Made by a program: the position numbers and the translations under genes. The notes below the pieces were generated by a model that was given only the letters and a program-made list of their open reading frames with translations, was not told the DNA's origin and searched no databases. This document shows positions 18,853 through 26,719 of a stretch of 36,682 nt of DNA, piece after piece; the first letter of the stretch is position 1; every line of letters starts with the position of its first letter. The DNA comes from Rhizobium sp. Q54. GTDB taxonomy: Bacteria; Pseudomonadota; Alphaproteobacteria; Rhizobiales; Xanthobacteraceae. The stretch spans positions 1-36,682 of the forward strand of contig CAMAUC010000030.1 of the NCBI GenBank assembly GCA_945861265.1, given 5' to 3'.

Positions 18853-19013
18853 GAAAACGGGGCTTGCGGACGGCTTTCGCCGGGCCGGGCCGCGCGCCTC
18901 GCTTGAAGCGCATTTAGCCTGACGATGGGCTTGTCAAATCAAACGAATTGCCCCATGTGATGGGCCTCCGGCACGCCGGCAGCAGGCTATTTGCCCGACG
19001 CGCACGGCCTTGC

Positions 19014-19087
19014 TGGGGGATCGTCCAATGGTAGGACTCCAGACTCTGACTCTGGCTATCTAGGTTCGAATCCTAGTCCCCCAGCCA
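19014..19087 (+). tRNA. tRNA-Gln (anticodon CTG)
   Basis: A full cloverleaf of 74 bases with encoded CCA. The acceptor stem TGGGGGA pairs with TCCCCCA. The D arm is GTCC/GGAC. The anticodon stem CCAGA/TCTGG encloses CTCTGAC, with CTG at 19046-19048 reading CAG. The T arm is CTAGG/CCTAG with loop TTCGAAT. A T-rich stretch follows the CCA and may end transcription. The gene marks the left boundary of an accessory patch; no second copy of its 3' end was found in the window. Confidence 0.97.
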
Positions 19088-19361
19088 TTTTTATTTGTAC
19101 TTATACATCAAATAATATCAATGGCTTATGGACAGGCCGAAGCGTCGTACCCTAACGCTGCCCCCAACGATTTGGCCCCGACTTACCGTTTTGCCACCGT
19201 CGGACAAACGAGCCCCGTTGCACCGATGCTCAACTCCATGACCTCAAGACTGCGGACTTTCATAAGGTGTTGAACGAACCCGCCGATGCAAGGAAGCCGT
19301 ATCCGGTGTCAACACTCTGCCGTATGGTAGCCGAACCGTAGCGTGAACAGTGGAGAGTGTT

Positions 19362-19565
19362 GTGGCAACCGGTACTGTAAAGTGGTTCAACCCGACTAAG
19401 GGATATGGCTTCGTGCAGCCTCAGAGCGGCGGCAAAGATGTGTTCGTTCATATCTCTGCCGTGGAACGAGCGGGCTTGAGCACGCTCAATGAGGGTGCTG
19501 TAATCGAATACGAGATCGTCGCGAACAAGGGCAAGGAATCTGCGGAAAACATTAAAGTGAAGTAA
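19362..19565 (+). CDS. Cold shock protein, CspA family
   Basis: A small single-domain OB-fold protein that binds single-stranded nucleic acid and melts RNA structure. The N-terminus MATGTVKWFNPTKGYGFVQP carries RNP1 (KGYGFV), and DVFVHISAVERAG carries RNP2 (VFVHI). It is about 67 residues, normal for the family. The GTG at 19362 is preferred because GGAGA lies 5 bases upstream and the protein then starts at the family-typical MATGTVKWFN; a GTG at 19350 would add four residues. The 5' leader back to the tRNA is about 270 bases, long enough for the structured leaders known for cold shock mRNAs. Confidence 0.95.
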   Translation: MATGTVKWFNPTKGYGFVQPQSGGKDVFVHISAVERAGLSTLNEGAVIEYEIVANKGKESAENIKVK

Positions 19566-19572
19566 CCGCAGA

Positions 19573-19923
19573 CTAATGTGCGTGGGTTGAGTTGTGGCTA
19601 GTCGCCGGCGTTGTAACCGGGCAAGTGAGCAACTGGGAGCGGACGCTCACGCGGAAGCCACCGTCCGCCAGACCTTCGAATTGAATTCCTTGCTCGTGCC
19701 AAAGCAACTCGACTACCCGTACCGTGGCCCGCCGCGGTTCGGTGTCGCCGCGCTCCAGTTGGTGCACGCAGCGTTGCGTCAGCCCGACCCGCCGCGCCAG
19801 TTCGGTCTGGCTCCAGCCGCTCAACGCACGTGTCATCCGGACCTTGGCGGCAAAAGCAAGCCGTTCGAGCCTCAAATGCTCAACGAGATCACCTGAGCGA
19901 TCATGCGCAAGTTGAGTTGTCAT
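19573..19923 (-). CDS. XRE-family helix-turn-helix regulator
   Basis: A 116-residue DNA-binding protein. The helix-turn-helix spans about residues 27-72: VRMTRALSGWSQTELARRVG, then TQRCVHQLERGDTEPRRATV, the classic Cro/C1 pattern with Gln and Glu at expected positions. The following WHEQGIQFEGLADGGFRVSV resembles C-terminal tails of Rhizobiales XRE proteins and of some antitoxin-like regulators. No toxin gene is adjacent. It converges on the cold shock gene with a gap of 7 bases, so their transcripts may interfere. Confidence 0.85.
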   Translation of the reverse strand: MTTQLAHDRSGDLVEHLRLERLAFAAKVRMTRALSGWSQTELARRVGLTQRCVHQLERGDTEPRRATVRVVELLWHEQGIQFEGLADGGFRVSVRSQLLTCPVTTPATSHNSTHAH

Positions 19924-19962
19924 TAGCTCTACAAACCTTTGCCGACGATACGCTTACCTTTG

Positions 19963-19991
19963 AAAAACCCCCGGCAGTTTCCTGCCGGGGG
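19963..19991 (-). terminator. Rho-independent terminator of the porin gene
   Basis: A perfect 10-bp stem (cccccggcag / ctgccggggg, 19968-19991) has a 4-base loop. It is followed on the minus strand by five T (19967-19963) and lies 38 bases beyond the porin stop. Confidence 0.88.
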
Positions 19992-20028
19992 CTCTTTACA
20001 TTAGGCGAACTTCGCCTCGATCAAGCGA

Positions 20029-21537
20029 TCAAGGATAGAAGTTACGCTGAATGCGCAGGTGGGCCATCCACGCGCTCTGGTCGGCCGACGTCGCAACGGT
20101 ACCGGTGTTGCGGGCATCGAGGTTGGTGTACATCACGTCGACACCGACCTCGAGGTTGTTGACCGGAGCCCACGCAGTGCGCGTGCCGACCTGCCAAGTA
20201 TCCCATTTGCCCGAGCAGCCAGTCGCGATAGCTGCTGCGGTACAAAGGAGACTATCGTTTTCGACGGCCGCATAGCCACCGTAGACCGACGTCTTCCACT
20301 TCGGGTTCCAGTTATGCTCGTACGACGCACCCACGCTCCAGGCGGTCGTCAGATGCAGGCTGTCAGTGCCGTTCACCTGGAACACGGCATCGGCGAAGGT
20401 ACCCGCGCCGCTGGTGCCGCCGCTAACCTTCGACAGGCTGCTGCCCGCCGACATGTACTTGGTGGCACCCTTGGTCCAGTTGTACTGGGCCTGGAAGTAG
20501 TCACCAACACCAAGCATCGGCGCATTCACGCGAATGCCGGCGCCGAAAGCGTAGCCAAAGGCGTTGCCCGGATGACCCGCGAGAGCGATGTCATAGTAGG
20601 CTGCGCTGGTGTCATGGATCGCACCCATGACCTGCGCACTGCCCCAAGCCTGATCGACGCGCAAGTTGCCGACGAAGTCGGGCATCTTGTTGCCGGCTTT
20701 GGCAATCGGCGCGCCGTTAACGTCGGTCGGGAAGCCAGTCGTACCTGAAGCGGTGGAAAAAGCGCCGCCACCGGTCAGGACCGGGGTCACCGAACCGTTA
20801 CGCGGATCTTCAGCCGAGATCGTGGCCGACAGACCGTTGCCAAGCTGGGCGGTGTAGGCGAAAACCTGATAGCCACCGTCACCCGTATCCGCGCCGCCCG
20901 CGGTCCACGCCGAACCGCCGTTATACGACACAGCCGCGTAGTTCATGAAGTCGTAGAACGACTGCGAACGACCGGCGGTGAAGCCGGCGAACTGGATGAA
21001 CGCACGATTGGCGCTGAAGCCGGCCGGGCCGGCACCAACCGCAGCAATGCTAGCACCAGACGTGGCGCTTGCATCCGCAGCCTTCGCACCCTGCAGCGGA
21101 TTATCCCCCGACAGACCGACCGCGATGTAGCCGCGCAGCGTACCGTATTCGGTCTGCGAGCGGGCATCGGCCGTGATGTAACCACGGTTACGGGTCATGA
21201 AGTCGTGGGTCTGACGGTTGTTGAGGTTGGCGTACATCGGACCAGTCGTCCCGCTGCCGTTGTAGCCGTAATACATCTGCATACGGACCCAACCGCCAAC
21301 CTTGATGCAAGTATCGGTGCCCGGGATGTAATAGAAACCCGCACCGTACAAGCTACAAATCTTCACGTACTGACCGATTTGCGGCGTGTCGCGCGTCAAA
21401 TCGCAACGGCGCCAAGGGCGCGGCGGTCGTGCGCCTCCGGTCATGCGCCGCAGAGCGGCCACCGCCCGCCGGGTGCGTCGTGGGTCCGGCGAAAAGCCAT
21501 GCAATTGATCGAGCGTCCGGGTTTGCCGTCGTGCCAT
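20029..21537 (-). CDS. Omp2b-type porin with a replaced N-terminus (probably non-functional)
   Basis: From residue 56 (QYVKICSLYGAGFYYIPGTD, split as YVKICSLYGAGFY and CIKVGGWVRMQ) the product matches mature alphaproteobacterial Porin_2 beta-barrels to the C-terminus (HLRIQRNFYP). Such trimeric outer-membrane channels normally begin with a signal peptide and an ADLPVKA-like mature start. Here residues 1-55 are Arg-rich (MARRQTRTLDQLHGFSPDPR and onwards) with no hydrophobic core. No signal peptide is found upstream in any of the three minus-strand frames. The junction is near 21372. Without a signal peptide the protein cannot reach the outer membrane, so the gene looks like a 5'-truncated copy fused to foreign sequence, or a silent donor cassette. 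The remaining frame is intact and its terminator is kept, suggesting a recent event. An integrase gene lies 270 bases upstream. Confidence 0.85.
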   Translation of the reverse strand: MARRQTRTLDQLHGFSPDPRRTRRAVAALRRMTGGARPPRPWRRCDLTRDTPQIGQYVKICSLYGAGFYYIPGTDTCIKVGGWVRMQMYYGYNGSGTTGPMYANLNNRQTHDFMTRNRGYITADARSQTEYGTLRGYIAVGLSGDNPLQGAKAADASATSGASIAAVGAGPAGFSANRAFIQFAGFTAGRSQSFYDFMNYAAVSYNGGSAWTAGGADTGDGGYQVFAYTAQLGNGLSATISAEDPRNGSVTPVLTGGGAFSTASGTTGFPTDVNGAPIAKAGNKMPDFVGNLRVDQAWGSAQVMGAIHDTSAAYYDIALAGHPGNAFGYAFGAGIRVNAPMLGVGDYFQAQYNWTKGATKYMSAGSSLSKVSGGTSGAGTFADAVFQVNGTDSLHLTTAWSVGASYEHNWNPKWKTSVYGGYAAVENDSLLCTAAAIATGCSGKWDTWQVGTRTAWAPVNNLEVGVDVMYTNLDARNTGTVATSADQSAWMAHLRIQRNFYP

Positions 21538-21806
21538 CGAACCGGCGCTTCTGCCAACTAGGTATGGCCTAGGTCGCGCGACAAAAGCCCATATTTAACG
21601 GCACAATTCGACTCGAATTGAAACGCGCGCAAGCACGCGATCATTGAGGCTATTGGATTAGGAATTGGTAAACGCCGGCGCCGCGCAAATCTGCGCGCTA
21701 CGCCAGCAGGTGCTGATGCAAGATATTAATTCTGAAACGCGTGCGCTTCACGTCCGCGCCTTTCCCGGACATGGGCAATGAGATCGATAGAGCAATTTCG
21801 AAGCGG

Positions 21807-23027
21807 CTAGTTCGAACGCTCTGACGCTGGACGAAACGGCGCGCCGTTGCTCAAGCCGCTACCGGCAACGGCCGGCGGAAATGCAATGACGTGCTGGATC
21901 AGGTCCGCCGCGTCGCTCAATGTCTCTTGCGCGAGATGCGCGTAACGCTGCGTCGTACGTGCATGCAGATGGCCGAGCAGCCCCTGCACCACGTAGAGCG
22001 AAACGCCACGATTGACCAGGAAGCTCGCAAACGAATGCCGGAGATCGTGCAGCCGCACGTCATCGAGACCGGCGCGGTCCCGAATCCGCGCCCAAGGGAA
22101 AAACAAAGACGCCGAAGGACGGCCTGTGACTTCGGATGGGAAGATGTAAGGATTGCCGTCAATGCGCGGCGTCGCCGACAACAGCGCGATCGCCGATTGG
22201 TTTAAGGCGACGAAACGGGCGCGGCCCGATTTTGATTTCGGCACCAGCAGCGTCTTGTTCTTCCAGTCGATGTAGTCCCATTTGGCGAAAGTAACTTCGT
22301 TGCGACGCGCCCCGGTCAGAAGCAGCAGCATGATCGAGCGCGCCGCCGTCTGGTTTTCGTCGTTCTGGATGGCCCGCACCAGATTTTCCGCTTCCCATTC
22401 GGTAAGAAAGCGATTGCGCTGAACCTCGGGACCGGCGCTCAGGCCAGCCGCCGGATTGTCAGCGCCGCCCGGCGTCTTCCACTTGCGCGCAAGATTGTAG
22501 ATATAGCGCAGAATGACGATGACCCGGTTCATCGTGCCGGCGGCGTAGCCGTCCGCTCGCATGGCGTTGATCAGGTTAGAGATAGCGTCGGTCTTAATCT
22601 CGTCCAGCGCCAGACTGCCCAGCTTGGGCAGAATGTGGATACGCAGTACCGTCTCGTCAGTCTGCCAGCTGTTCTTGTAGGTCTGCACGAACGGTAAATA
22701 GCGTTCGGCGACGAAGTCCTTGAGTTGCGGCACCGCCCGCATTTCGCGCCGCTTCTGCTGCGGGTCGGCGCCAAGCAGCGCCTCGGCCACCACCTGCCGG
22801 GCCTTGCGACGCGCCTGATCGATCGCCAGCACGTCGGCCGACCCGATCTTGTATTGGCGCTCGCGTCCGCGCTCGTCGGTGTATCGCTGGTAATATGTCT
22901 TGCCGCCCGAGCTTCGCACCTCAAGCATGAAGCCACGCTGGGTTGAATCAAAATAGTCGGCCTTGCGCTGCGCTGGAGCACACGCGGCGGCACGAACGAA
23001 TTGCGCGGTAAGGACGACGACAGGCAT
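21807..23027 (-). CDS. Tyrosine-recombinase integrase
   Basis: A 406-residue site-specific recombinase. The N-terminal arm-binding part (about 20-85) includes YFDSTQRGFMLEVRSSGGKT and ERQYKIGSADVLAIDQAR. The SAM-like core-binding domain (about 100-185) contains YLPFVQTYKNSW and RVIVILRYIYNLARKW. The catalytic domain has Arg241 in LTGARRNEV, a Lys in LLVPKSKSGRAR, His327 and Arg330 in LHDLRHSFAS, His353 in LLGHLHARTTQ and the nucleophile Tyr362 in RYAHL, so the active site is complete. The ATG at 23027 is preferred; a GTG at 23033 is possible. It lies between the chimeric porin and an AT-rich stretch. It is unrelated in detail to the broken integrase at 1-374. The integration site is unknown; tRNA-Gln is 2.7 kb away. 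Confidence 0.93.
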   Translation of the reverse strand: MPVVVLTAQFVRAAACAPAQRKADYFDSTQRGFMLEVRSSGGKTYYQRYTDERGRERQYKIGSADVLAIDQARRKARQVVAEALLGADPQQKRREMRAVPQLKDFVAERYLPFVQTYKNSWQTDETVLRIHILPKLGSLALDEIKTDAISNLINAMRADGYAAGTMNRVIVILRYIYNLARKWKTPGGADNPAAGLSAGPEVQRNRFLTEWEAENLVRAIQNDENQTAARSIMLLLLTGARRNEVTFAKWDYIDWKNKTLLVPKSKSGRARFVALNQSAIALLSATPRIDGNPYIFPSEVTGRPSASLFFPWARIRDRAGLDDVRLHDLRHSFASFLVNRGVSLYVVQGLLGHLHARTTQRYAHLAQETLSDAADLIQHVIAFPPAVAGSGLSNGAPFRPASERSN

Positions 23028-23414
23028 ACGCACTCAAATTTTACGTTGGACGAATGTTAGAAGCGCAACAATGCGGCCCACCCGCAAGCAACCAACAGTA
23101 TTGCGGTGCACTTTAGATGCGTTTGTCCGCAAAGAAATATAATATCATAAAATATATACAACTGTTGCTTTTTTATCGGAAGTATAATCAACAGTATTAC
23201 TTTAGACTCGAATGGTGATATAGAGTAAACAACTATTTATGGAACGATTACATTGTAAATTTAATATAAATTCATTAGCAATATGAAAGTTGAAGCGTGT
23301 ATTAGAGACACGCATCTGGGGAATTATTGGTTGTGGAAAGATTATTATACCATTAAATGGCAGGGGATATAATCCACTCAACCTTGGATTGGTCGGAGCG
23401 GCAGGATTTGACAC
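23028..23414. other. AT-rich stretch upstream of the integrase, no supported gene
   Basis: From about 23110 to 23300 the base composition is far more AT-rich than the rest of the window (runs such as tataatatcataaaatata). No convincing coding sequence is seen. It probably holds the integrase promoter and may contain recombinase or excisionase binding sites or an att core. Confidence 0.6.
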
Positions 23415-23603
23415 TTAGACTGCTTTGTCCAAACCAAAGCGTTGTCGGGTCATCGTCCTTCGATCTGCCCTGGTGACAACTACCTTGTACCTAAGCAATT
23501 TAGCGCCGGTATTCTGCGTTTCGTTGATTTTGTAACCGACGTGGACAGCTTGGAACAGGCCATCAACCACTCGGGTGACGCCTAAATCTGTGATTTCAAT
23601 CAT
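23415..23603 (-). CDS. Small hypothetical protein
   Basis: Sixty-two residues from an ATG at 23603, starting MIEITDLGVTRVVDGLFQAV and ending TMTRQRFGLDKAV. The middle, HVGYKINETQNTGAKLLRYK, is followed by VVVTRADRR. The alternating hydrophobic pattern suggests a small beta-rich domain; no family is recognised. No signal peptide or membrane segment is seen. It lies in the accessory patch between the integrase and the polymerase-like gene and may belong to the mobile element. A chance reading frame cannot be excluded. Confidence 0.4.
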   Translation of the reverse strand: MIEITDLGVTRVVDGLFQAVHVGYKINETQNTGAKLLRYKVVVTRADRRTMTRQRFGLDKAV

Positions 23604-23826
23604 GACGACTATCGACTTTGAGCAAATCAACAATCGTCATTGATCTCGAAGAAACTGACATCTGGCCAAACGCCCTCACCGCAGATGAACTCTCGGCGAC
23701 GCCATGATGATTCTCTAAGGGAGGCCATGAACGGGAGGCGGTTTCTGAACACCACACCGTCGGCTCCGCTACGGCTGCCTTAGGCGGTTTGCCTCAATGG
23801 CCCGAAAGCCGCTTCACTTAGAGGCT

Positions 23827-23837
23827 CCCCCCCCCCC
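23827..23837. repeat. Homopolymer of eleven C
   Basis: An uninterrupted C11 tract about 43 bases beyond the stop of the polymerase-like gene. Such tracts are prone to slippage in cells and to sequencing error. Confidence 0.85.
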
Positions 23838-23879
23838 AGGTCCTCTCCCTTTAGCAGAGCCATAGCTCGAAAATGCTTG

Positions 23880-24980
23880 CTAAATGGGCCCAAAATCTAT
23901 TTTTACGGACGCGCGAGCGGAGCCAGTGTGCCGCCTGAACGCTGCCTCCATGACCTTTCTCGCGGTGTCGCCATAAGGTCGCGCTACCAAGACGGAATCG
24001 TGTAGGGGCAGCGCCGTAATGCCCTGCTTGAAGAGCGCGGTGACTACGGCGATCAGCATGTCGCTCTCGATGCGCATCAACTTGAATCCCAAACCGTGTT
24101 CGAGCAGGTGAGCTATAGGCGCGTGTTTGGCTTTTATCGCCGTAACGGCTTCCCGGAGAGAGACGCCATTAGGCAGTTTTTCGCGAGTGTCGCGGGGCCA
24201 GCCTCTGAGGGGCCGTTCGGCAAACAGAAGCGCATTGATAAGCTGCTTCCAACCCTCCCGACACGTGCCATCACCGGTGATGTCGTAAAGATCGGCCCTT
24301 GGCTGAGCCTCCCGAGCCCGCACGTATGCTAGACGAGGGAATAGCGAGCCGAAGTCGACGTTGACTACGGGGTCGCCCATGACTCGTAGGAGCCGAAAGC
24401 GGTCGGAGCGTTCCATAGTCTCCCAGAAGCCGCCGAAAAATCGACCACCTTGCTGCCAGTCTGCGTTGTTGAATATTCGGCGGAGGCCTCGACGGTAGGG
24501 CTCGATGGGTTGCCCGACGTTGTCCAGAGTCAGGGCCGCCCGGCTCTGCCCCGCGATGCTAATTGGCGCGTCTCGCAGCCACGCATTGAGTCTTGCGATC
24601 TCACGTCGCCACTGTGCAGTTCGCTTTGTGTCCTCGTAATCAATTGGATCGGCGCGTCCGTCATGATCTTTCGCAGGCTTGAGGATCAATAGTTCCGGCG
24701 GGTCTTCCTGTCGGAAGGAGTCCCATTTCAAACTGGTAAGCGACATGCGTTGCTTGTCGCCGCCACCCCATCCGGTTTCGCGTAGCCGCCCACCTTGGCA
24801 GAACCCAATAGTTGTGACGCATCGCAATAATTGGCCTGATCGCGAAGTGTACGCGCTCGCAAGTGACGACGAAAATTGAGCTGCACAACGTCGAGGCAAG
24901 TTGCCCGGAAAGCGGTACAAATCCGCGACCTTGCACCTGATCTTTTTCACTAATTGAAATTCCGCAAGGAATGCAATCAC
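23880..24980 (-). CDS. Compact family-A-polymerase-like protein of a mobile element (uncharacterised)
   Basis: Up to 366 residues (GTG at 24980); an ATG at 24746 (residue 79) is an alternative start, and the first 60 or so residues look unlike a folded domain. The conserved part has PELLILKPA and DPIDYEDTKRTAQWRREIAR, then FNNADWQQGGRFFGGFWETM. Next comes VVNVDFGSLFPRLAYV (Asp209, motif A-like), EGWKQLINALLF (Lys245, motif B-like), HAPIAHLLEHGLGFKLMRIE followed by SDML, and GITALPLHDSVLVARP (His327-Asp328, motif C-like). The order Asp, Lys, His-Asp matches the palm/fingers core of family A DNA polymerases and phage-type RNA polymerases. The His-Asp-Ser form is closer to the latter. There is no visible exonuclease or primase domain. 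Related proteins occur in proteobacterial accessory DNA, usually as hypotheticals. Activity, and whether the N-terminus is intact, are unknown. It is near the integrase and has no helicase or other replication gene beside it. Confidence 0.6.
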   Translation of the reverse strand: MIAFLAEFQLVKKIRCKVADLYRFPGNLPRRCAAQFSSSLASAYTSRSGQLLRCVTTIGFCQGGRLRETGWGGGDKQRMSLTSLKWDSFRQEDPPELLILKPAKDHDGRADPIDYEDTKRTAQWRREIARLNAWLRDAPISIAGQSRAALTLDNVGQPIEPYRRGLRRIFNNADWQQGGRFFGGFWETMERSDRFRLLRVMGDPVVNVDFGSLFPRLAYVRAREAQPRADLYDITGDGTCREGWKQLINALLFAERPLRGWPRDTREKLPNGVSLREAVTAIKAKHAPIAHLLEHGLGFKLMRIESDMLIAVVTALFKQGITALPLHDSVLVARPYGDTARKVMEAAFRRHTGSARASVKIDFGPI

Positions 24981-25087
24981 TTTCCACCGCCAGCGACGAA
25001 TTGCCCTATGCAGTCCAGCAATAGTGGATCATTCTCCAGTCACTGCTGAAGACCAAAAACCAAAACAGGGGATAGGGAAGCAACGCC

Positions 25088-26719
25088 ATGGCTCAAACCA
25101 TCGAAGCCTTCGTTGGCAAATCTTTGGACGAAGCAAAGATTTCGCCACTGCACAAAAAGATCATCGGCCTGATCGCTGCCGGATACTTTTTCGACGTCAT
25201 CGACTTCACGATCTTCGGCGCGCTCGTGCCGTTCATCCTGCAATCGAAGTTCGCAACTGGACCGGAAGTCGGCCTCATCGGCGCGGCCACCGTCTTCGGC
25301 ATGTTCATCGGTACTGCCGGTCAGGGTCAATTCAGCGACCGCTTCGGCCGCCGTTTCATTTACCAGTTCAATCTGATGCTGTTCGGCATCTTTACCATTC
25401 TCGGTGCGCTGGCCCCGAGCGTGACCTTGCTGATCCTGTGCCGGTTCATCGCCGGTCTCGGCCTCGGCGCGGAACAGCCACTCGCCTTTGCCTATGCCGG
25501 TGAATACGCACCGAAGGCAATTCGCGGCCGCGTTCTGGCCATCGTCCACTTCATCGGCGGCGCCTGCGTCTGGCCGATCGGTACGGCGCTCGCGCTCCTA
25601 GCAGGCGCGGTCGCAACCTCGCCTGAATATGCCTGGCGCTCGGTGTGGCTGCTCATCGGTGCCGGCGCCCTGGTCGTCTGGTTCTTCCGCTTTGCCCTGC
25701 CGGAATCGCCGCGCTATCTGGCGACGCATGGCCGCGGCGATGAAGCGCTTGCCGTATTGACCAAGCTCGGCATTTCCGGTCCGACCGAGAAACTCACGAC
25801 CGACTCCGCCAGCGACACCAAGAGCGATCCGTTCGGCGTCGTCTTCAAGATGTATCCGCAGCGTGTCATCGCCGGCATGATCTGCTTCACGGCGTTCTTC
25901 GGCATCGCCATCGGCCTCGGCGCCTGGCTGCCGAACATCATGAACGAAAAGGGCTTCACGATCACCAAGTCGCTCCAGTACACGCTGGCGATGAACTTCG
26001 CAGTGCCGTGCGCCAGTCTTTTCATGATGTACGCGCTCGACAAATTCGGCCGTAAGATCACCGCCATCTGCGCTTTCCTCGCGGCGGGCGTTATGGCCAT
26101 GGTGTTCTCGCAGGCCGGAACCGCGACCGAATTGATCGTTGCCGGCTTCGTGATGATCTTCTTCGTGCAGGTTGCGGGTAATTCGATGCAGATTTTCGCA
26201 TCGGAAGTGTTCCCGACCAATGCGCGCGCCTCCGGCTTCGGCTGGGCGTCGGGCGTCGGCCGGCTCGCGACTGCGTTCATCATGCCGGCGATCCTGCTGA
26301 TCCAGACGACCTACAGCCTCACGACCGTGTTCGTCTGTCTGGCCACCCTGCTTGTCATCGCCGCCGCGGCCGTGACGCAGCTCGGGCCGGAATCCCGGCA
26401 GAAGGGCCTCGACGAAATCGCACCGCCGACCGTCGGCGTTGTCGAAGCCGGCACGGATTTCTGGCTGAAGTTCGCCGGCGCCGTGTCGCTGCTTCTGTCG
26501 TTGAGCTGGTGGCTGTACTTCTATCTGGCCGCCAAGGAAGTGGCGTCCACACTGCCCTGCCTGTTGTACACGTCGGACAAGTGCCAAGCGCTTGTCACCG
26601 CTGCCGAAGCGGCCGGCAAGTTCGCATACAAGCCCTATCTGACCTGGATCGGGCTCGCGCTTCTCGTCGTCGGCATCGTCATGAGCATGACGAGCAAGCC
26701 GGTCGCCAAGAACGCATAG
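25088..26719 (+). CDS. MFS metabolite:H+ symporter with a C-terminal two-helix extension
   Basis: A 543-residue transporter of the sugar/aromatic-acid symporter type. Helix 1 reads GYFFDVIDFTIFGALVPFIL. Motif A is GQFSDRFGRRFIYQ, and GLGLGAEQPLAFAYAGEYAP and RFALPESPRYLATHGR are typical of the sugar/benzoate/shikimate branch. Twelve helices fit in the first 430 residues. A further 100 residues add two hydrophobic segments (FAGAVSLLLSLSWWLYFYLA and LTWIGLALLVVGIVM) around a loop with two Cys (LPCLLYTSDKCQA). The extension is not usual for the family. The ATG at 25088 follows GGGGATAGGGAAGC. It is the first gene of an apparent four-gene operon, so it probably imports the substrate of the downstream enzymes. 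Confidence 0.88.
   Translation: MAQTIEAFVGKSLDEAKISPLHKKIIGLIAAGYFFDVIDFTIFGALVPFILQSKFATGPEVGLIGAATVFGMFIGTAGQGQFSDRFGRRFIYQFNLMLFGIFTILGALAPSVTLLILCRFIAGLGLGAEQPLAFAYAGEYAPKAIRGRVLAIVHFIGGACVWPIGTALALLAGAVATSPEYAWRSVWLLIGAGALVVWFFRFALPESPRYLATHGRGDEALAVLTKLGISGPTEKLTTDSASDTKSDPFGVVFKMYPQRVIAGMICFTAFFGIAIGLGAWLPNIMNEKGFTITKSLQYTLAMNFAVPCASLFMMYALDKFGRKITAICAFLAAGVMAMVFSQAGTATELIVAGFVMIFFVQVAGNSMQIFASEVFPTNARASGFGWASGVGRLATAFIMPAILLIQTTYSLTTVFVCLATLLVIAAAAVTQLGPESRQKGLDEIAPPTVGVVEAGTDFWLKFAGAVSLLLSLSWWLYFYLAAKEVASTLPCLLYTSDKCQALVTAAEAAGKFAYKPYLTWIGLALLVVGIVMSMTSKPVAKNA

Follow-up and report, generated by a model that had tools for sequence, protein, structure and literature searches.

A 5'-truncated gene for a putative family A-related polymerase in a mosaic tRNA-Gln island of Rhizobium sp. 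Q54 and its relatives in mobile elements and phages

The window analyzed in this study is the complete contig CAMAUC010000030.1 of Rhizobium sp. Q54 (assembly GCA_945861265.1), with a length of 36,682 nucleotides. The gene of interest is an open reading frame (ORF) of 366 amino acids on the reverse strand, which was originally predicted to encode a stand-alone compact polymerase. Sequence comparison indicates that a family A-related polymerase gene has here lost its 5' part; this truncated copy is located in an island inserted at a tRNA-Gln gene. The intact relatives are carried by integrative elements, mainly of Alphaproteobacteria, and by phages.

The polymerase core and its fold

Residue conservation was measured in two alignments. 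Alignment A3 contains 82 rows, namely the window copy and 81 relatives, each taken from a named genome or a viral contig. The broader alignment contains 58 sequences, each of at least 300 amino acids. The features of the polymerase gene are as follows.

23880-24980, reverse strand: polymerase ORF, 366 amino acids, GTG start at 24980 and stop at 23880-23882
23883-24746, reverse strand: polymerase core delimited by homology to relatives (residues 79-366, 288 amino acids), with the GGR hairpin, palm, fingers and motifs A, B and C
24354-24356, reverse strand: motif A Asp209 in VNVDFGSLFPR, 82/82 in A3 and 58/58 in the 58-row alignment
24246-24248, reverse strand: motif B Lys245 of Arg241-x3-Lys245, 82/82 in A3
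23997-24002, reverse strand: motif C His327-Asp328, 82/82 in A3
24747-24980, reverse strand: codons 1-78 of the ORF, 5' of the core, with no clear family homology; one of the seven alignments extends to codon 51; chromosomal flank from 24943

Asp209, Asp230, Tyr232, Arg241, Lys245, His327 and Asp328 were each found in all 82 rows of A3. A few single exceptions were present in the broader alignment, where Asp209 was kept in 58/58 rows, Lys245 in 56/56 of the rows with a residue at that position, Arg241 in 55/57, and both His327 and Asp328 in 53/54. Similarly, Arg180 of the GGR motif, located in a part of the model that contains strands, was invariant in A3 and kept in 57/58 of the broader rows. 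The motif strings A, B and C, which the original prediction had placed at Asp209, Lys245 and Asp328, are therefore real. A chance motif match was ruled out because the motif residues are invariant even in distant relatives. A short insertion directly before the motif B RxxxK was observed in one congener member (genome G004, L116:8712-10163), and L098 is similar.

The AlphaFold2 model of the core is compact, with a pLDDT of 95.1. Its fold matches family A DNA polymerases and T7-like RNA polymerases in the Foldseek and VIA comparisons, and the palm-fingers fold, the motif A Asp, the motif B RxxxK and the motif C HD of this superfamily are all present. A palm fold of the family A or T7 type was thus supported. 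Two checks had been attached to the original claim, one for a fold lacking a palm and one for the loss of the three residues among homologues; both were carried out, and neither refuted the claim. In the VIA comparisons, mitochondrial and T7 RNA polymerases scored level with DNA polymerases, and the mitochondrial RNA polymerase recurred in a second comparison. Only DNA polymerases are among the Foldseek matches listed; this absence of RNA polymerases carries no weight, since T7-type enzymes appear among the VIA matches. No exonuclease or primase domain was recognized in the window polymerase, as had been predicted.

Neither Pfam nor NCBIfam matched the window ORF at E values up to 1. Two sequence searches against the PDB at E values up to 10 returned nothing in one case and just a ribosomal protein at 0.8 in the other. 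An identity from Pfam, NCBIfam or PADLOC was ruled out, as no family there fits the polymerase. When the members of alignment A4 (n=73) were scanned against the family libraries, only weak matches were found, in one or two members each, such as D5_N in 1/73 at an E value of 0.011. The PHROGs profile phrog_4756, whose function is unassigned there, matches the whole ORF at 7e-21.

The residues for sugar selectivity were compared at positions 214 and 249, which we take to be the equivalents of Klenow E710 and F762, in a register set by ungapped alignment of the motifs rather than by structure. Glu at position 214 was found in 0/82 rows of A3 and 0/58 of the broader alignment. Phe or Tyr at position 249 was found in 0/82 rows of A3 (Asn 49, Ser 12, Gln 8, and others), and Phe in 1/56 of the broader rows. 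The A3 rows thus do not have the motif A Glu and motif B aromatic residue that mark a family A enzyme selective for deoxynucleoside triphosphates (dNTPs). The residue after the motif C HD is Ala, Ser, Gly or Cys in 82/82 rows. The residues at positions 214 and 249 tentatively suggest that enzymes of the bacterial branch may be able to use ribonucleotides. The phage reference AUR84708, of the divPolA2 group of phage polymerases, counts against this reading, with Glu at the E710-equivalent and FDE at motif C.

The tRNA-Gln island and the lost N-terminal part

Most relatives are about 430-500 amino acids long, with an additional N-terminal domain of about 145-160 amino acids. The window copy lacks this domain and is therefore judged to be 5'-truncated, which replaces the earlier view that a stand-alone compact form is the natural state. 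Seven full-length relatives were compared with the window by tblastn. The alignments start at codons 76-81 in five of the seven, at codon 51 in L141, and at codon 117 in L145, with about 52% identity between the window and the Bradyrhizobium proteins. The size range of 290-366 residues given earlier needs a correction, as clear homology covers just residues from about 79 to 366 (288 amino acids), and the first 50-78 codons are without it. For the first 145-160 residues of these seven relatives, tblastn found no upstream match in the window below an E value of 0.1, which rules out a frameshift as the cause of the lost N-terminus. The model of a full-length relative (L130) displays strands as well as helices in the N-terminal domain, including two long helices further to the single long helix (model residues 41-59) ahead of the hairpin in the window core.

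The borders of the island and its neighbors are as follows.

19014-19087, forward strand: tRNA-Gln (CTG), left border of the island, found by ARAGORN and Rfam; located beside the major facilitator superfamily (MFS) gene in the congener loci L234 and L241
19088-24942, no strand: inserted island (5,855 bp), with tRNA-Gln on one side and the MFS flank on the other; the site is empty in L234 and L241
21810-23033, reverse strand: tyrosine recombinase of the tRNA-Pro type (PF00589, 1.1e-27)
23390-23408, reverse strand: att-like sequence of 19 bp, identical to the tRNA-Pro 3' end, between the integrase and the polymerase
25088-26719, forward strand: MFS transporter gene (ORF), right chromosomal neighbor, present in 22/43 genus genomes, own included

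In the two congeners with the empty site, tRNA-Gln adjoins the MFS gene. The junction alignment with these congeners indicates that the chromosomal flank restarts at 24943. This position is inside the ORF, so the GTG start lies in flank DNA, and codons 1-12 are chromosomal flank of the insertion. Congener L244 matches the window from 24881 onward by blastn, and L240 is similar there by eye. Together with the flank comparison, the L244 match places the loss of the N-terminal part between about 24746-24830 and 24881. A search of 18900-25200 that allowed up to 6 mismatches gave no second tRNA-Gln 3' end, and thus no right att copy of tRNA-Gln was found.

The same site is occupied in another congener. 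In the stretch L121:1-2944, a relative of the polymerase that is interrupted by a stop adjoins the MFS gene. A member of the tyrosine recombinase cluster is encoded just upstream of this relative, and 13 bp of the tRNA 3' end are repeated as the right border. The tRNA-Gln/MFS site thus appears to be a hot spot for elements of this kind.

The island is a mosaic. Between 19350 and 23033 it contains a cold-shock-like gene, a helix-turn-helix regulator, a porin-like gene and the tRNA-Pro-type integrase. The integrase is present in 20/43 genus genomes, own included. Among the congener loci fetched for it, tRNA-Pro is nearby in 8/9, and the remaining stretch (L230) is without any tRNA gene. In several congener loci bearing tRNA-Pro, the matches cover both the porin and the integrase. 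The integrase and the adjacent porin are probably a tRNA-Pro-type module within the mosaic island and not the polymerase's own mobility gene, because of the tRNA-Pro genes near 8/9 loci and the 19-bp tRNA-Pro copy at 23390-23408. The link between the polymerase and mobile elements was borne out; its assignment to the neighboring integrase was given up on the same tRNA-Pro evidence.

Intact relatives and their neighbors

Family members were counted in several collections. The polymerase was found in 36/397 genomes of an order-level sample and, with the weaker phrog_4756 profile, in 23/398 genomes of a phylum-level sample, own genome included in both. The window polymerase has one match in its own genome (n=1), and no close relative of the window copy turned up in the family searches. 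From a collection of named genomes, the best 80 of 352 candidate loci were kept. The hosts are mainly Alphaproteobacteria (Bradyrhizobium, Rhizobium, Methylobacterium and Rhodobacteraceae), with a few others, such as Cupriavidus and Desulfovibrio-type metagenome-assembled genomes. Members were also found on 13 viral contigs; a scan of viral contigs with the window protein alone as the query led nowhere. Within the 93 loci, six (L158, L166, L177, L183, L205 and L213) were dropped as broken, partial or duplicate, and 87 remained, of which 81 entered A3 and 72 entered A4.

The family also extends to phages. When the member of Vibrio phage K354 was used as the tblastn query, 240/50,697 phage records were matched, including ICP1 and 115 Rheinheimera phages. 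With the window protein as the query, 11 phage records, all of Vibrio phages, and 3/72,556 plasmids were matched. In the records and libraries consulted, the family as a whole is mostly labeled as 'hypothetical' or 'unknown function', and one phage entry is named DNA polymerase. In Vibrio phage ICP1 (NC_015157 53119-54744, ORF99/ORF100 region), a family member is annotated as hypothetical.

Recombinase genes are frequent around the polymerase. In the 80 named genome loci, the serine recombinase cluster was found in 52, the tyrosine recombinase cluster in 47, and either of them in 68, as counted within flanks of up to 8 kb, some shorter, with one Pfam-confirmed member per cluster and no background rate. 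A 17-bp direct repeat of the tRNA-Leu 3' end encloses the polymerase in 13-14 kb in two of the five polymerase loci examined; tRNA-end repeats were not found in the other three (L077, L116 and L118).

A small protein with a CCCH zinc finger is a recurrent neighbor (cluster k3, L130-L222; for example L132:7156-7896). It was found near the polymerase in 46/93 loci, with the gene on the polymerase strand in 47/47 cases and within 300 bp in 43/47. The zinc ligands are conserved, with the three Cys kept in 45/46, 45/46 and 46/46 members and the His in 44/46. The members examined gave no match in Pfam, PHROGs or PADLOC. A profile of the protein was positive in 27/397 genomes. Polymerase and zinc-finger protein were found together in 17/397 genomes versus 2.4 expected (hypergeometric p 1.5e-13, ignoring genome relatedness); this count assumes that the same 397 genomes were used in both profile searches, and the genome handles agree. 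The same profile found nothing in the genome of Rhizobium sp. Q54. These data suggest that the zinc-finger protein may be a partner subunit of the polymerase. A detached copy of the N-terminal domain was ruled out as its origin by hhalign (probability 0.1).

An RNase HI cluster is present in 7/93 loci, a count without a measured background and with PF00075 confirmed in the one member checked. Six of these genes are on the polymerase strand (L199:7327-7977, L211:1-549, L168, L191, L137 and L187). RNase HI is within 300 bp of the polymerase in four loci, and in two of them it overlaps the polymerase start. Three more small gene families (k8, k10 and k17) surround the polymerase in the Bradyrhizobium elements L130-L142; one member of each gave no Pfam match.

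Interpretation and comparison with known systems

We consider it likely that the window gene is a truncated remnant in a mosaic tRNA-Gln island and that its intact relatives are primase-polymerases of mobile elements. In the intact elements, the predicted polymerase would start and extend short strands to copy the excised element. The N-terminal domain and the small zinc-finger partner would hold the single-stranded template, and the tyrosine and serine recombinases would move or resolve the element. The window copy is probably an immobile and non-functional remnant, even though its catalytic core is open and intact, because it has no N-terminal domain, recognizable zinc-finger partner, own integrase or right attachment site.

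Several points weigh against this reading. The window core is stop-free. Of the 44 columns with strong conservation it retains 40, which ranks it 60th among the 82 rows (median 0.955). Short forms without the N-terminal half are also present elsewhere (L013, L101 and L108 among 59 loci; L205 among 93). The fold alone is compatible with DNA or RNA synthesis. The partnership with the zinc-finger protein is not obligate, as the zinc-finger protein is alone in 10/27 genomes and the polymerase in 19/36. The recombinase and RNase HI counts carry the limits of background and Pfam confirmation given above. No helicase was recognized by reading the window ORF list, and no profile scan of the island for helicases was made.

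The same short forms, together with the open frame, the intact invariant residues and the confident compact fold, would fit a functional minimal polymerase of 288 amino acids that starts at or near Met79. Stand-alone minimal members are also described for TV-Pol, a polymerase of bacterial mobile elements (Iyer, Abhiman and Aravind 2008, PMC2579912), and Rice 2023 makes the case that contacts with partners evolved anew in truncated N-termini. We regard a functional minimal enzyme as unlikely. A ribosome-binding site before Met79 is not evident by eye, element-end sequence and chromosomal flank are located immediately upstream, the N-terminal domain is kept by most relatives, and a zinc-finger profile positive in 27/397 genomes finds no partner in the own genome.

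For the intact bacterial members, a more specific proposal is a two-protein primase for RNA or mixed RNA/DNA, with a family A palm devoid of both ribonucleotide-excluding residues and a CCCH zinc-finger subunit that would recognize single-stranded template, in which the primers of some elements would be removed by the element-borne RNase HI. This proposal is possible but doubtful, and it is rated lower because the divPolA2 reference retains the motif A Glu. That Glu and the FDE motif C of AUR84708 also argue against single-subunit RNA polymerases transcribing element or phage genes, which are quite unlikely in our judgment. The level VIA scores, the residue after the motif C HD and the E710-equivalent that is never Glu in A3 favor such an enzyme, and Yutin et al. 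2024 (PMC11348598) raises the same option for divPolA2. However, only DNA polymerases are among the Foldseek matches listed, the N-terminal domain of divPolA2 is stated in that paper to have no relation to the N-terminal domains of PolA-related RNA polymerases, and recombinase and RNase HI neighbors suit replication better. The least probable of these explanations is that mobile elements carry the enzyme as a DNA polymerase for repair or gap filling. This is consistent with the family A fold, it is named as an option in the same paper, and barbaviruses with divPolA2 are stated there to possess a regular PolB as well; but no exonuclease domain was recognized, A3 lacks the residues for dNTP selectivity, and the largest neighbor clusters inspected hold no recurrent repair gene.

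The interest of this finding rests with the family rather than with the window copy. The family is widespread and mostly unlabeled, and it may include a kind of primase that belongs to neither of the two classical folds. If the two-protein RNA primase is true, it would be a priming solution other than DnaG and the archaeo-eukaryotic primases (AEP), and distinct from the DNA-priming CcPol-MP. The zinc-finger partner, the RNase HI neighbors and the missing sugar-selectivity residues make the prediction of 2008 specifically testable by biochemistry.

The original prediction considered the protein novel; the same kind of protein had been described both as TV-Pol and as phage divPolA2. TV-Pol is a minimal family A-like core in bacterial mobile elements, many of them in Alphaproteobacteria, and was predicted to be a primase-polymerase (PMC2579912). 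Its neighbors are gamma-delta resolvase and lambda-type integrase, and its thumb consists of two antiparallel helices. A subset of TV-Pol bears an N-terminal globular domain, predicted to be all-helical. Similarly, the window family has two metal-binding aspartates in an RRM-like palm, the hairpin arginine, and fingers with a conserved Asp (Asp230) and RxxxK (Arg241 and Lys245), each in 82/82 rows, and it belongs to recombinase-linked mobile elements, as the 68/80 loci indicate, although the tyrosine recombinase adjacent to the window copy is probably from another element. Unlike the TV-Pol subset and its elements, the window copy has neither the N-terminal domain, which its full-length relatives have, nor a recognized resolvase beside it. 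The N-terminal domain of the relatives contains strands and helices, in contrast to the all-helical prediction. Microcystis phage Ma-LMM01 gp030, taken as TV-Pol from its place beside a transposase, was matched at a borderline E value of 0.0049 by one of three unfiltered profiles; it was not among the matches listed for the other two, nor was it listed with the three default-filter profiles. The family is thus a close fit to TV-Pol in motifs and setting, not by sequence match.

The link to divPolA2 is by sequence. Profile A2, built from 18 bacterial sequences including the window, finds AUR84708 at 1.7e-18 and Barba19A gp041 at 1.1e-25 in a search space of 689 six-frame ORFs from five phage stretches, and on these matches the family is judged homologous to phage divPolA2. 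The accessible text of PMC11348598 describes divPolA2 in phages with variable neighbors, an N-terminal globular domain and a palm without a known thumb; in that text TV-Pol is used for the PolA of small viruses and is not linked to divPolA2. As in divPolA2, the palm has no known thumb, the exonuclease is absent, and the relatives have an N-terminal globular domain. Unlike divPolA2 as described there, the bacterial members are chromosomal and tied to recombinases, and the window copy is without the N-terminal domain. The Glu and FDE of AUR84708 are missing from the 82 A3 rows. If the relationship is true, the family joins bacterial TV-Pol elements with the divPolA2 of phages such as ICP1 and barbaviruses.

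The PolA-SSB primases such as CcPol-MP (PMC7581432 and PMC10061031) likewise have a family A core on a mobile element, a small operon partner and a site-specific recombinase nearby. Their partner is an OB-fold protein, and a helicase (D5/COG3378 or DUF927) is linked, whereas the recurrent partner here is the CCCH zinc-finger protein. According to PMC7581432, the residues that correspond to E710 and F762 are both retained in CcPol, the polymerase of SCCmec, and the 82 A3 rows are without them. DNA polymerase I and the T7 and mitochondrial RNA polymerases share the palm-fingers fold and motifs A, B and C; the window family is much shorter, with no exonuclease domain recognized. In the open-access literature on divPolA2 and TV-Pol, with subscription papers and supplements outside the search, no title on such chromosomal elements and no report of the zinc-finger partner were found. 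What appears to be new is that divPolA2 is tied to tRNA-integrated alphaproteobacterial elements, with a recurrent CCCH zinc-finger neighbor in the operon and an occasional adjacent RNase HI, and that the bacterial branch appears to have lost both residues that exclude ribonucleotides.
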